Below, in pieces: positions 54,837 through 61,683 of a DNA stretch of 64,000 nucleotides. The notes under the pieces were generated by a model. The model worked only from the letters and a program-made list of their open reading frames with translations. It had not been told where the DNA came from and searched no databases. The stretch is taken from NCBI RefSeq assembly GCF_036429475.1, contig NZ_CP144125.1, forward strand, positions 1,364,001 to 1,428,000, written 5' to 3'. The DNA comes from Halalkalicoccus sp. CGA53 (GTDB lineage Archaea; Halobacteriota; Halobacteria; Halobacteriales; Halalkalicoccaceae). Every line of letters begins with the position of its first letter. The first letter of the stretch is position 1. Position numbers and translations under genes: made by a program.

Positions 54837-56945
54837 TCAGTACGAGAGGAGCGAGGCGTCCCGCTCGCCCCGGAGGTGGTGCTCGATATCGTCCAGACGC
54901 CAGCCGAGCGGCGAGACGACGCTCTCGGTCGCCCGGAGGAGTTCTCGCCGGTAGAACGCGGGATCGTATCCCGCCGCCTCGAACGGGAGGCGCACGCGCT
55001 CTCGCGCGCTCGCCCCGTCGTCGACGACGACGAACGCCACCGACTGGCCGGGCGCTCGCGCCATCCCGTGGCGGTCGTACCGACGGAGCGCGCTCACCGT
55101 CCGAGTCTCGCGGGTGTACTCTTCGGGCCGCTTCGAGACCCGCTTCCGGATCACCAGTTCCTCGACCGGTACCGCCCCGCGCTCGAGTTCCCTCACGTAG
55201 CGTCCCGCGCGGTCGCAGACCGCGGCCGGGTCGCGGTGTTCGTCGAGGACCCGGACCAGCTCCCGCTGGGCGTCGGCGACGTACTCGGGCGTACTCCGCT
55301 GACGACACTCGATCCCCCTGTACGTGTAGCGGTCCTCGTCCGCGACCCTCCCGAAGTAGCGCATCAGCGCCCCCGCGTTCGATCCCCGTCGCGGGACGAA
55401 ACAGACCCAGTCGTACTCGGCTTCGACCTCGAGCGCGATCCCCGTATCGCGGGAAATCCGCTCGGCGACCGGTCCGAGCGCCGCCGTCTCCCGATCGGGG
55501 TCCGGCCGCACCCAGAGGCTGTCGACGATCCCGTGGACGACCCGCCACCCGTTCGCCTCGAGGACCTCCTTCGAGCGCAGCAGGAGGTCCCGCGCGATCG
55601 CGTTGATCGCCTCGTGACACTCGATCCGGCCGAACTTCGCGTTCCGGTAGCCCTGGTAGCCGAAACAGCTCACCAGGATCCACTTGATCGCCCCGGATTT
55701 CGCCCGGAGCGCGGCGGCCTCCTCCTCGTCGTCGGTCTCCGCGAGCCGCCGTTTGTACCGGGCGCGGTCGTCGAGCAGCGGCCCCAGGACGTCGGGGAGG
55801 AAGCCCGGCTCGTCACAGACGTTGTACCCGAGTTCGGGGACGTCCTCCCGTCCCTCGTGACACGCACAGAGCACGGTGTCGGGGCTGACGTTGTACTCGC
55901 GGATGATCCGCGGGTAGAGCGAGGCGAAGTCGATCTCGACGACCCCCTCGTGGAGACCCACCTCCGGGTCGAACGTGAACCCCCCGCGGTCGGCCGCGTG
56001 CAGCGTGCGGACGTCCTTGAACGCCTCCGGCCGCCACTTCTGCCACGGGACGAGCACGCCCCTGTCGAGCGCCTTTCTGACCTGGATCGACGTGAGGATC
56101 GTCCCGATCGAGCCCCAGGCGGCCTCCTGGAGCGGCCGCCACGACCGGCGAACGAGGTAGAGGAGTCCGTCGAGACGCGACTCCGCCCAGAGGAAGCTGT
56201 TCGAGGTGTCGACGATCGCTCGGCCGGGGACGTCGTAGCGCGCCGGCGAGTGGCCCACGGTTCCATAACTCTCGAACGTGTTCGCGCCGGCCAGCTTCCG
56301 CCAGCCCGGCCCCCGACCCAGCGGGAGGTCGACCCCGGCCGCGAGCGCGCGCTTCGACAACAGCGGGATCAGTCCGCCGTCGCTCAGCACTAGCACGTCC
56401 GGGTCGACCCGTTCGAGCCGGCGGACTACTGTACCGAGCACGGCGTCCTCGTCGCCCTCGACGGGTTCGCCGTCGAGGACGAGCCCCGCGAGCTCCTCGT
56501 CGGCCAGCGCCCGCTCGCCGATCCGGATCGAGAGCCCCTCCAGTGGCTCCCCGGGCGTCGGGTCGGTGCCCGTCTCGACGCAGTAGCGAAACCCCGGGGC
56601 GAGGTCGACGTTGAACAGTCGGTAGGTCCCCGGCGGCTCTCGACCGATCTCCCGCTCCCGGAGGATCCGCGTCGCGAGCGTCCGTGGGGCGTCGTGACTC
56701 TCGACGGTCACCCGGAGGACGCGCTCCGGTTCGGGCGATCCGAATTCGGTCTGCCACGACTCGAACCCGATCCCGACGACGAGCCGCTCGTCCGCCAGTC
56801 GTTCGCGTAGCGTCTCGAGACGACGCTCCTCGCCCGCGACGTAGATCCTCGGGCGGTAGCCCTCGACCCGTCGGCTCCGGACCTTCCCCCCCTCGCGGCG
56901 CCACTCGACGACCGCGTCCTCGAGGAAGTCGAACGCGAACGGCAT
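54837..56945 (-). CDS. polB2: Divergent family-B DNA polymerase (PolB2-like)
   Basis: A 702-residue family-B polymerase. Motif A 'EIDFASLYPRII' is intact (Asp339). Motif B region is 'AIKWILVSCFGYQGYRNAKF' (Lys421, Tyr430). Motif C, normally Y-G-D-T-D-S, is 'VHGIVDSLWV': the first Asp is Ile473, the second, Asp475, remains. The exonuclease part has lost Exo I (D-x-E is 'VDLAPG') and Exo II ('VLVLSDGGLIPLLS'), so proofreading should be absent. This is the PolB2 pattern; whether it polymerises is open, but the metal-binding Asp pair 339/475 is kept. Start ATG 56945 is 1 nt after the DUF8156 stop. Confidence 0.85.
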   Translation of the reverse strand: MPFAFDFLEDAVVEWRREGGKVRSRRVEGYRPRIYVAGEERRLETLRERLADERLVVGIGFESWQTEFGSPEPERVLRVTVESHDAPRTLATRILREREIGREPPGTYRLFNVDLAPGFRYCVETGTDPTPGEPLEGLSIRIGERALADEELAGLVLDGEPVEGDEDAVLGTVVRRLERVDPDVLVLSDGGLIPLLSKRALAAGVDLPLGRGPGWRKLAGANTFESYGTVGHSPARYDVPGRAIVDTSNSFLWAESRLDGLLYLVRRSWRPLQEAAWGSIGTILTSIQVRKALDRGVLVPWQKWRPEAFKDVRTLHAADRGGFTFDPEVGLHEGVVEIDFASLYPRIIREYNVSPDTVLCACHEGREDVPELGYNVCDEPGFLPDVLGPLLDDRARYKRRLAETDDEEEAAALRAKSGAIKWILVSCFGYQGYRNAKFGRIECHEAINAIARDLLLRSKEVLEANGWRVVHGIVDSLWVRPDPDRETAALGPVAERISRDTGIALEVEAEYDWVCFVPRRGSNAGALMRYFGRVADEDRYTYRGIECRQRSTPEYVADAQRELVRVLDEHRDPAAVCDRAGRYVRELERGAVPVEELVIRKRVSKRPEEYTRETRTVSALRRYDRHGMARAPGQSVAFVVVDDGASARERVRLPFEAAGYDPAFYRRELLRATESVVSPLGWRLDDIEHHLRGERDASLLSY

Positions 56946-56946
56946 C

Positions 56947-57264
56947 TCACTCCGGACGCCCTCCCACCCGCTCGTCGCCCCCGTCCGCCCCGACGCTCTC
57001 CTTGTCTCCACCGTCCCCGACCGCGTCGACCGCCTCCCGGAGCTGACGGAGTTCGCGTTCGTGCGAGAGCAGCATCGATAGCAGGACCACTGGCTCCGGA
57101 TCGGTCGCGTTCAGCTGGCCGGCCGCCGCGGCGTGGCGCTCGGCTCGCTCGAACAGTCGATCGAAGTCGGCCTGCCACCCTCGCCTGAGCCCCCGCCGGT
57201 AGGGCGCACACCGCTCCCGGTACCGCCGGAGGAACTCCCGGTAGGTGGGGTTCGTCCGGCCCAT
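56947..57264 (-). CDS. DUF8156-type small protein
   Basis: A 105-residue haloarchaeal protein, beginning 'MGRTNPTYREFLRRYRERCA' then 'GLRRGWQADFDRLFERAERH' and 'ATDPEPVVLLSMLLSHEREL'. It is all-helical with a basic N-terminus and an acidic tail. I match it to DUF8156 from memory of the 'GRTNPTYR' start. It is flanked at 1 nt on both sides by the RecA-like and the PolB genes, so it is very likely a partner of both. It may bridge them or bind DNA with its basic helix, which is inference. Confidence 0.72.
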   Translation of the reverse strand: MGRTNPTYREFLRRYRERCAPYRRGLRRGWQADFDRLFERAERHAAAAGQLNATDPEPVVLLSMLLSHERELRQLREAVDAVGDGGDKESVGADGGDERVGGRPE

Positions 57265-57265
57265 C

Positions 57266-57961
57266 TCACCCCTCCACCCACCCGAGGGGGGCGTCGACCG
57301 GGTCGAGCGGTCCGACACCGATCTCGGTACCCGTATCGACCGCACCGAACAGCGCCACCCAGTACGGGATCGTCGTCTGCCAGTAGCCGCCGTCCCAGTA
57401 GCAGGTCGTCTCGAACGACTCCCCCGAGAACGCGAAGCCGAACGGCGTCTCCCGGCAGGCGAGCTCGGTATCGGCGGCGACGGCCAGGCTGTCGGCGGCG
57501 GGGTCTTCGGCCGTCGTCGTCACCAGGACGGGGACGTCGACGGCCGACGCGAGATTCGAGAGCACCGCGAGCGTCGCGTCGAGGAGGTGCTCGGCCCGGT
57601 CGGCGTCGAGGTCCGGGTCGCGGTAGAGCGCGGTCACCGCGGGGGCGACCACCAACGAGGTCCGGCCGGTTACCAGGCCCGGAAGCCGTCGGACCAGCGA
57701 GTGGTGCTGGTAGGCGGTGAACGCCCGTGCGATCCGGAGGCTGTCCAGCGTGCGCTCGGCGGGGGCCGCCCCGTAGAGCGCGTACGTCGCGGCGTGGTTC
57801 CGCGCGTCGATCCAGAACGCCGAGCCCGGTCGCCGCCGCAGTCGGTCGGCCACGAGCGCCGGGAGCGCGGGCGAGCGCGGACGCGGCAGCCGCAGGAGCG
57901 CGAGCCCCGGATCGAGCGCCGGGAGCCCGTGACGGTCGTGGCCTGTGGTGGTCGTCGCCAT
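57266..57961 (-). CDS. RecA-fold protein without Walker A (ImuA/RadA-like)
   Basis: A 231-residue protein aligned by pattern with the RadA/RecA core. 'RTLDSLRIARAFTAYQHHSL' resembles the RadA 'N-I-x-V-A-R-A' strand-helix, 'VAPAVTALYRDPDLDADRAE' the Walker B/L1 part, and 'AADTELACRETPFGFAFSG' the C-terminal strands. The N-terminal 'GLALLRLPRPRSPALPALVA' stands where GxxxxGK[T/S] should be; no Walker A exists. It should therefore not hydrolyse ATP as RecA does. ATG 57961 is the likely start; 58027 is possible. First gene of the operon with the DUF8156 and PolB2 genes. Confidence 0.75.
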   Translation of the reverse strand: MATTTTGHDRHGLPALDPGLALLRLPRPRSPALPALVADRLRRRPGSAFWIDARNHAATYALYGAAPAERTLDSLRIARAFTAYQHHSLVRRLPGLVTGRTSLVVAPAVTALYRDPDLDADRAEHLLDATLAVLSNLASAVDVPVLVTTTAEDPAADSLAVAADTELACRETPFGFAFSGESFETTCYWDGGYWQTTIPYWVALFGAVDTGTEIGVGPLDPVDAPLGWVEG

Positions 57962-57972
57962 CTCTCGGCTCA

Positions 57973-57997
57973 CATATACTCGATCGGTGAGATAAGT
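57973..57997 (-). promoter_or_regulatory. Promoter region of the RecA-like/DUF8156/PolB2 operon
   Basis: Two TATA-like elements read on the minus strand: AGTATATG (57973-57980, centre 15 nt before the ATG) and ACTTATCT (57988-57995, centre about 30 nt before it). The second fits a leaderless start at 57961; the first is too close unless translation begins elsewhere. Which one is used decides the N-terminus. Confidence 0.4.
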
Positions 57998-58208
57998 CGT
58001 CGCCGTCCGCACGGTGAAAGTGGACACGTCTTCTCCAGTAAGGGACGTAAATACAGCCGCCGTCGATAGTGGATCGTTGACGATCGCGTCGATCAGCGCG
58101 GCAGAACCGACACTGTTCCCATTTCCGTTCGAACTCCTGGACGAACGCGATTCCGGATCTGGAACGGGGTCCGACCGGAACTGATTCGCGATCCCGCGGA
58201 AACCGGGA

Positions 58209-59944: not shown

Positions 59945-60718
59945 ATGCACCTCATCGCCGTTCCCGACCTGCCGGAGGTCCGCGAGGGCGACGACCTCGG
60001 GGCCCTGATCGGGGACCGGATCGACCTCGACCCGGACGACGTCCTCTGCGTCGCGAGCACGGTCGTCTCGAAGGCCGAGGGTCGGAGCGCCTCGCTCTCG
60101 GCGTTCCCGGCGGGACCGCGCGCCCGGGAGATCGCGGATCGCTTGTCCGGAATCCACGACGAGGAGAAGGACCCGCGGTTCGCACAGGCAGTGCTGGAAG
60201 AGAGCGTCGAACTGCTGATGGAGGCGCCGTTCCTGCTCACGGAGACGCGCTTCGGCCACGTCTGTGTGAACGCCGGGATCGACCGCTCGAACACCGGTGG
60301 GGCGGACCTGCTGTTGCTCCCGAGACGACCCACCGAGAGCGCGTCGCGGATCCGCGACGGTCTCGAGTACGGGAACCCGGTGATCGTCACGGACACCTGC
60401 GGCCGGCCCTTTCGCCACGGCCAGCGCGGGGTCGCCCTCGGCTGGACGGGGATGCCCGCGAGTCGGGACTGGCGCGGCGAGGCGGATCGAGAGGGGAGAG
60501 AGCTCGGGGTGACGGTCGAGAACGTGATCGACGAACTGGCGGCGGCGGCGAACCTCGTGACCGGTGAAGGGGCGGGCGGGACGCCGGCGGTCGTCGTCCG
60601 GGGCTTCGAGTTCGGCGATCTCGGGGGCAGCGACGAGCACTTTCGAGCCGTGGAGACCGACTTCGTCCGCCAGGCGCTGCGTGGCTGGTCCTACGACGAG
60701 GGGGGTGCGGAAGGGTGA
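59945..60718 (+). CDS. cofE: Coenzyme F420-0:L-glutamate ligase CofE
   Basis: A 257-residue enzyme that adds glutamates to F420-0 using GTP. Landmarks are 'VLCVASTVVSKAEGR' near the N-terminus, 'CVNAGIDRSNTGG' and 'PVIVTDTCGRPFRHGQRGVA' with 'LGWTGMPASRDWRG' in the centre, and 'AANLVTGEGAGGTPAVVVRG' near the end. All are family-typical. The stop overlaps the GTG of mer by four bases (GTGA at 60715-60718). TATA-like 'GGCCTTTTCACC' lies about 28 nt upstream. Confidence 0.94.
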   Translation: MHLIAVPDLPEVREGDDLGALIGDRIDLDPDDVLCVASTVVSKAEGRSASLSAFPAGPRAREIADRLSGIHDEEKDPRFAQAVLEESVELLMEAPFLLTETRFGHVCVNAGIDRSNTGGADLLLLPRRPTESASRIRDGLEYGNPVIVTDTCGRPFRHGQRGVALGWTGMPASRDWRGEADREGRELGVTVENVIDELAAAANLVTGEGAGGTPAVVVRGFEFGDLGGSDEHFRAVETDFVRQALRGWSYDEGGAEG

Positions 60719-61683
60719 TCGGGGTCGAGCTCACGCCCGAGCACCCGGTCGAGCGGATGGCCGAGTTGGGCACCGCGGCGGAGGCGGCCAGCTTCGAGGC
60801 CGCGCTCGCGAGCTGTCACTACAACAACCGCGACCCGTTCGTCGCGCTCTCCCGGATCGCCCGCGAGACGGAGACGATCCGACTGGGTCCGGGCGTCGCG
60901 AACCCCTACGAGGTCCATCCCGTCTCGCTCGCCTCGCGGGTCGCCACGCTCTCCGAGACGAGCGGCGGCCGCGCGGTCTTCGGGATCGGGCCCGGGGACC
61001 GTTCGACGCTCTCGTCGCTCGGCGTCGAGCAGGAGCGCCCGCTCCGGCGAGTGCTGGAGGCGTTCAACGTGGCTGCGGACCTCTTCTCCGGCGAACGGGT
61101 CGACCACGACGGGACGTTCTCCGCCGAGAGTGCGGCGCTCAACTTCGAGGTGGGCGATATCCCGATCTACGTCGGGGCGCAGGGTCCGCATATGCTCAGG
61201 ATGAGCGCGAAACACGCCGACGGCGTCCTCTACAACGGTGCCCATCCCGAGGACGTCGCCTGGGCGGCGGGACAGGTCGAACGGGGTCTAGAGGAGCGGC
61301 CCGACGAACGTGGGTCGTTCGACTTCACGGTCTTCGCGAGCACGAGCGTCGCAGCCGAGCGGGAGGCGGCGGTCGAGGCCGCCCGGCCGCCGGTGGCGTT
61401 CATCGCGAGCGGGGCCGCTCCCCCGGTGCTGGATCGCCACGGTATCGACGCCGAGCGCGCCGAGGAGATCGGCGAGCGCCTCTCGGCGGGGTCGTTCTCG
61501 GAGGCGTTCTCCCTCGTTACGGGACCGATGATCGAGGCGTTCTGCGTCGCCGGGACGCCGGCGGAGGTGGAGAGCCGGTTCGACGCGATTCTCGAGACGT
61601 CTGACGGGATCGTGGTGGGATCGCCACTGGGACCGGATCTGGAGGAGGCGATCTCGCTCACCGGTGACGCGCTCTCCCGATGA
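60715..61683 (+). CDS. mer: F420-dependent methylene-tetrahydropterin reductase-like (Mer, LLM family)
   Basis: A 322-residue flavin/F420 LLM-class barrel. 'IGVELTPEHPVERMAELGTA' opens the barrel; 'CHYNNRDPFVALSRIA', 'RLGPGVANPYEVHPVSLASR', 'GIGPGDRSTLSSLG' and 'VGAQGPHMLRMSAKHADGVL' match Mer, which reduces methylene- to methyl-tetrahydro(methano)pterin with F420H2. Haloarchaea make no methane, so it probably works on a folate in C1 metabolism. Start GTG 60715 overlaps the end of cofE, tying the enzyme to cofactor synthesis. Confidence 0.88.
   Translation: MIGVELTPEHPVERMAELGTAAEAASFEAALASCHYNNRDPFVALSRIARETETIRLGPGVANPYEVHPVSLASRVATLSETSGGRAVFGIGPGDRSTLSSLGVEQERPLRRVLEAFNVAADLFSGERVDHDGTFSAESAALNFEVGDIPIYVGAQGPHMLRMSAKHADGVLYNGAHPEDVAWAAGQVERGLEERPDERGSFDFTVFASTSVAAEREAAVEAARPPVAFIASGAAPPVLDRHGIDAERAEEIGERLSAGSFSEAFSLVTGPMIEAFCVAGTPAEVESRFDAILETSDGIVVGSPLGPDLEEAISLTGDALSR

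Follow-up and report, generated by a model that had tools for sequence, protein, structure and literature searches.

A probable haloarchaeal PolB2 mutasome operon in Halalkalicoccus sp. CGA53 and two candidate damage-response elements in the promoters of its relatives

Three adjacent genes of Halalkalicoccus sp. CGA53, encoding iRadA, PPB2 and PolB2, very probably (we put the probability at about 0.86) constitute a haloarchaeal PolB2 mutasome operon that is transcribed upon DNA damage. Product identity, sequence motifs, gene linkage and the promoters of related operons carry this reading, and the complex, its extender activity and its induction are those expected from published relatives. DNA damage would lead to a single mRNA giving all three proteins. 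By analogy with those relatives, PolB2, active and lacking proofreading, would extend distorted or mispaired primer ends beyond lesions; iRadA, unable to bind or hydrolyse ATP, would dock on PolB2 as RadA subunits dock in a filament, and a PPB2 trimer would bring its MGRT arm close to both the active site and the DNA.

The initial annotation had suggested a possible archaeal mutasome, and the dead RecA-fold protein, the small helical protein and the exonuclease-less polymerase on which it relied do agree with the published descriptions (PMC4104785, PMC11791011); the idea is not new. Makarova, Krupovic and Koonin (2014) predicted an archaeal operon of PolB2, arCOG07300 and an inactivated RadA, haloarchaea included (PMC4104785). 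Timinskas and colleagues (2025) modelled a PolB2:iRadA:PPB2(3) pentamer for 40 species, introduced the name mutasome for it and drew a comparison with Pol V (PMC11791011). The optional clamp-binding motif aside, the operon described here fits every tested defining protein and gene-order feature of that system (protein families and their gene order, the MGRT arm of PPB2, the dead Walker motifs of iRadA, and the changed motif C and lost exonuclease of PolB2); there is no categorical difference, and it is a haloarchaeal member. What the present analysis adds is two putative, apparently interchangeable control elements; we found no promoter elements described in these two papers, and no published account of PolB2 mutasome control in haloarchaea.

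The genome comprises 4.04 Mb in two contigs, and the window, i.e. the whole stretch of 64,000 nucleotides analysed, corresponds to C2:1364001-1428000. The three genes are complete open reading frames (Table 1), and each stop codon is separated from the next ATG by one base (57265 and 56946), in agreement with the same-strand arrangement with 1-nt gaps noted initially. The iRadA ATG is preceded, 12 nt upstream, by an in-frame GTG. Elsewhere in the window, an adjacent pair of plus-strand open reading frames (59945-61683) resembles, by eye, a CofE-type F420 ligase and a luciferase-like F420-dependent oxidoreductase.

Table 1. Features of the PolB2 operon and its promoter region (window positions)
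Feature	Position	Strand	Remarks
PolB2	54837..56945	-	702 aa, family-B DNA polymerase
PPB2 (arCOG07300)	56947..57264	-	105 aa, helical, PolB2 partner; N-terminus MGRTNPTYR with Arg3 and Arg9
iRadA	57266..57961	-	231 aa; RadA/Rad51-family core domain lacking Walker A, Walker B and the N-terminal domain
TATA-like element GACTTATCT	57990..57998	-	Putative; between box and start codon, assigned by inspection from its position
UV-B-box-like element GTCCACTTTCA	58015..58025	-	2 mismatches to TTTCACTTTCA; 64 nt before the iRadA ATG

Within the class, 262 of 392 genomes have PolB2, in many cases with at least two copies. The order iRadA-PPB2-PolB2 is kept in 58/60 haloarchaeal PolB2 loci of a first set and in 35/39 loci of a second (93/99 in total), a sample picked by similarity to the window PolB2 and hence favouring intact operons. 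Because the trio recurs in this order in both sets, the linkage is more than chance, and the genes are seldom separated, as the initial proposal required. The intergenic gaps of the sampled loci have medians of -1 and 5 nt, and in many operons iRadA and PPB2 overlap by a constant 14 nt. Examination of the neighbourhoods detected no iRadA near the PolB2 genes of loci L026, L051, L109 and L113-L115; the PPB2 of L026 is, moreover, without the MGRT arm. In L034, PPB2 and PolB2 are separated by an insertion of about 2 kb, and in L029 (G273:C1:2761743-2763842) polB2 has an in-frame TGA and is apparently broken, next to intact iRadA and PPB2 genes.

The first product had been described as RadA-like without a Walker A motif, and this was borne out. 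Inspection of the 231 residues found no GxxxxGK[ST]; in the AlphaFold model (pLDDT 89), a loop at residues 26-31, between strand 19-25 and helix 32-43, occupies the place of the P-loop, and in the profile alignment the Walker B Asp of RadA corresponds to Pro. The sequence begins at the ATPase core, the N-terminal helical domain being missing. As a single sequence it matched NCBIfam RadB (3e-6) and, just below the cut-off, Pfam Rad51 (2e-4). A profile of 43 relatives matched Pyrococcus RadA in the PDB (3e-12), followed by Rad51, DMC1 and RadB, and neither RecA nor ImuA appeared in the match list; of the RadA and ImuA relationships raised initially, only the former was recovered. The best Foldseek matches were the ATPase domains of RadA and DMC1 (E about 1e-10, TM about 0.6); the model thus has the RadA fold, in agreement with the RecA-type fold proposed initially. 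Judged by these profiles and the predicted model, the first product is iRadA, a RadA/Rad51-family protein with inactivated ATPase motifs. In the published models, a Rad51-type oligomerisation motif mediates the binding of PolB2 to iRadA (PMC11791011). The C-terminus of iRadA (PVDAPLGWVEG) has no clamp-binding (PIP) motif.

The second product had been called a DUF8156 protein. In the Pfam version searched, no model of that name matched the window protein or any of 39 homologues, and no family was convincing; the label could not be substantiated. In an alignment of 40 sequences, G2, R3 and T7 of the N-terminus are invariant and M1, T4, N5, P6 and R9 are conserved in at least 90%. An MGRT N-terminal arm is diagnostic of PPB2, formerly arCOG07300 (PMC11791011), and by its sequence we identify the second product as this protein. 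It had been pictured as a linker, and in the published models it does touch both partners; there it is a trimer with its N-terminal MGRT arm inside the cleft, and so a subunit rather than a simple linker (PMC11791011).

The promoter of the operon was considered together with those of related loci. A UV-B box, TTTCACTTTCA, has been defined for Halobacterium radA1, top6B, vng17 and vng280 (PMC2556686), about 50-60 nt before the start. Within it is ACTTTC, the UV-promoter hexamer of Sulfolobus; in Sulfolobus acidocaldarius, the upsE promoter lost its activity when this hexamer was replaced (PMC5817253). With at most one mismatch, the box occurs in 13 of 58 iRadA promoters (class 1), as against 0.12 in shuffles, which here and below carry no correction for kinship among related, non-independent loci. 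Exact copies stand at -60 to -72 in seven related loci, and an eighth locus has one at -112. The class-1 sites inspected elsewhere include radA (four), top6B (two) and a small Cys-rich protein (seven), and in the present genome top6B is preceded at 59 nt by an exact box, CTTCACTTACA is in the radA promoter and CTTCACTTTCAC precedes a gene for the small Cys-rich protein, which we regard as an unnamed member of the UV group. The latter (about 50 aa, with an end like ECxCGAVTVTV) is situated 46-61 nt behind a UV-B box in L094, L177, L183, L184, L190, L191, L192 and L206. A search of this genome for ACTTTCACTTTCAC with at most one mismatch gave none; reversing ACTTTCACTTTCAC merely gives this tandem again with a one-base shift, so that the reversed pattern is no valid control.

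The published set of UV-B box genes does not include a PolB2 operon, and the window copy is degenerate, holding a single ACTTTC (58016-58021). From this sequence comparison, we consider that the operon probably belongs, at about two chances in three, to the radA/top6B UV-response group, through a weakened ACTTTC-type box at -64. The alternative is that the box is fortuitous and the operon not under damage control, the damage-induced work being done by a second full iRadA-PPB2-PolB2 operon of the same genome (locus L023, contig C1 of 280 kb, 231000-243000). That operon encodes a PolB2 53% identical to the window PolB2 and has an Orc1/Cdc6 gene upstream, both the operon and the Orc1/Cdc6 gene carrying the repeat element described below; its existence and the two mismatches of the window box speak for this alternative. 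However, the position at -64 agrees with that of the box in related class-1 operons, a match as good within -75 to -55 occurs in 0.1% of dinucleotide shuffles, and in the PolB2 tree five class-1 loci, all of which carry the box, join the window operon in a well-supported clade. We regard a fortuitous box as rather doubtful, and prefer membership of the UV group.

A second group of promoters (class 2) has the direct repeat TCGGAA-N3-TCGGAA, with a strict match in 27 of the 58 iRadA promoters (0.14 in shuffles). A weight matrix, which was built on part of the first locus set and for which the Orc promoters and the second locus set are the held-out tests, found it in 37/58 (1.2 in shuffles), nearly always at -59. 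Among the 35 promoters of the held-out loci, class 2 was found in 14 (shuffles 1.2) and class 1 in two (shuffles 0.04), leaving 19 unclassified. In the 58-promoter sample the two classes are mutually exclusive, and they replace each other several times on the PolB2 tree, with 6-7 changes for class 1. An Orc1/Cdc6 gene is close to 27 of the 37 class-2 operons, usually just upstream, and to none of the 15 class-1 operons (p 7e-7 by count); on the tree, this association comes down to four well-supported independent pairs, of which three to four agree and none oppose, too few for significance. The linkage is weaker in the held-out loci (10/14 class-2, 8/19 unclassified and 0/2 class-1). All four linked Orc1/Cdc6 genes tested scored above the cut-off of TIGR02928.

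Of 28 promoters of the Orc1/Cdc6 gene itself, 22 have the same repeat (0.5 in shuffles), at about -60; in L025, L027, L029, L031, L037, L066, L069, L071, L075 and L076, the repeat lies about 60 nt before the starts of both iRadA and Orc1/Cdc6. When 194 genomes were searched for TCGGAA-N3-TCGGAAAC independently of PolB2, there were 48 sites among the matches listed, and none for the reversed-pattern control. Thirty of these sites were inspected: 13 precede Orc1/Cdc6 (11 of them at 58-60 nt from the start), two are 59 nt before iRadA and 15 are not followed by a recognised gene. A reading of the repeat as a replication-origin ORB is not favoured, since the repeat lacks a G-string, is direct and has the same spacing to the start of each of the two genes. 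Makarova et al. described a very divergent RadA family, arCOG07763, in haloarchaea with an Orc2 gene nearby (PMC4104785). Sulfolobus Orc1-2 binds its own promoter at a hexamer which damage-response promoters contain as well (PMC9738581), and thus an Orc1/Cdc6 paralogue regulating its own gene together with damage genes has a precedent. By analogy, the linked Orc1/Cdc6 is a candidate regulator, and the TCGGAA repeat its candidate operator, in haloarchaea. Whether haloarchaeal PolB2 mutasomes are damage-switched through two interchangeable operators about 60 nt before the start, a tandem-ACTTTC UV-B box and a TCGGAA repeat bound by Orc1/Cdc6, is in our view evenly balanced.

The third product matches NCBIfam NF004418 over its full length (883 bits, cut-off 692), and its model (pLDDT 89) matches archaeal PolB structures with E of about 1e-40. 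The initial description of its motifs proved accurate. Motif A, D339-F-x-S-L-Y-P, is intact, with D339 and Y344 invariant in 40 relatives; in motif C, H-G-I-V-D475-S, H471 and D475 are likewise invariant. Alignment with Pyrococcus PolB (Y-I-D-T-D-G) puts Ile where that enzyme has the first motif C Asp, and shows the Exo I and Exo II residues to be missing. D319-R320, also invariant in the 40 relatives, represents the D(K/R) motif before the palm; we equate it with the published 253-DK-254 by position rather than by direct alignment. The C-terminus, RDASLLSY, is a weak DxxLxxY candidate for clamp binding; this motif is absent from many members of the PolB2 mutasome (PMC11791011).

The first proposals, of 2008-2014, held PolB2 to be catalytically dead and gave the complex a structural or regulatory role at stalled forks or origins. 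The replaced Asp of motif C, the lost exonuclease motifs and the linkage of many loci to Orc1/Cdc6 fit such a role, which is discussed in PMC4104785. Nevertheless, the invariance of the motif A Asp, H471 and D475 makes retained catalysis of haloarchaeal PolB2 plausible, and Sulfolobus Dpo2 (PolB2) is a robust, exonuclease-less extender polymerase despite the same change in motif C (PMC8764526); by this analogy, the Ile should be compatible with activity. We therefore hold a dead polymerase to be improbable and an active, proofreading-less PolB2 the better reading. Dpo2, which is damage-induced, shares with the window PolB2 the pattern of catalytic motifs, the operon partners and the presumed extender role, whereas its damage response is run by Orc1-2 via a hexamer element and haloarchaea have two alternative elements. 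A point against the main reading is that Haloferax volcanii tolerates the deletion of polB2, according to an unpublished result quoted in a review (PMC7776575).

The closer parallel of the operon is Pol V/Pol zeta, rather than the ImuA-ImuB-DnaE2 module invoked initially. According to the published models, it is like the E. coli Pol V mutasome (UmuD'2C-RecA) in having a polymerase on a RecA/Rad51-family protein with a filament-type contact and a small-subunit arm close to the active site; unlike it, Pol V has a Y-family polymerase, an active RecA and a UmuD' dimer in place of the PPB2 trimer. The likeness to ImuA-ImuB-DnaE2, a dead RecA-fold protein within a mutagenic module, is a functional one. 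Common descent with that bacterial module, for which a dead RecA-fold protein beside an error-prone polymerase in a damage-associated operon might speak, is very improbable and largely refuted, as iRadA is of the RadA rather than the RecA type by both profile and fold searches, ImuB (Y-family) and DnaE2 (C-family) are both absent from the operon, and bacterial PolB2 operons are reported to be transfers of the archaeal module (PMC11791011).

Damage-bypass polymerases set the archaeal mutation rate under stress, and we found no published regulator for haloarchaeal damage regulons in the literature. The question of control becomes testable now that there are defined promoter elements, an Orc1/Cdc6 protein as candidate regulator and one genome with two full operon copies. 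If the proposal of two operators is true, there would be two damage regulons in haloarchaea, and the UV-B box/ACTTTC would be a damage element common to crenarchaea and haloarchaea; if ACTTTC is indeed shared with Sulfolobus, archaea would have an equivalent of the SOS box that spans two distant phyla.
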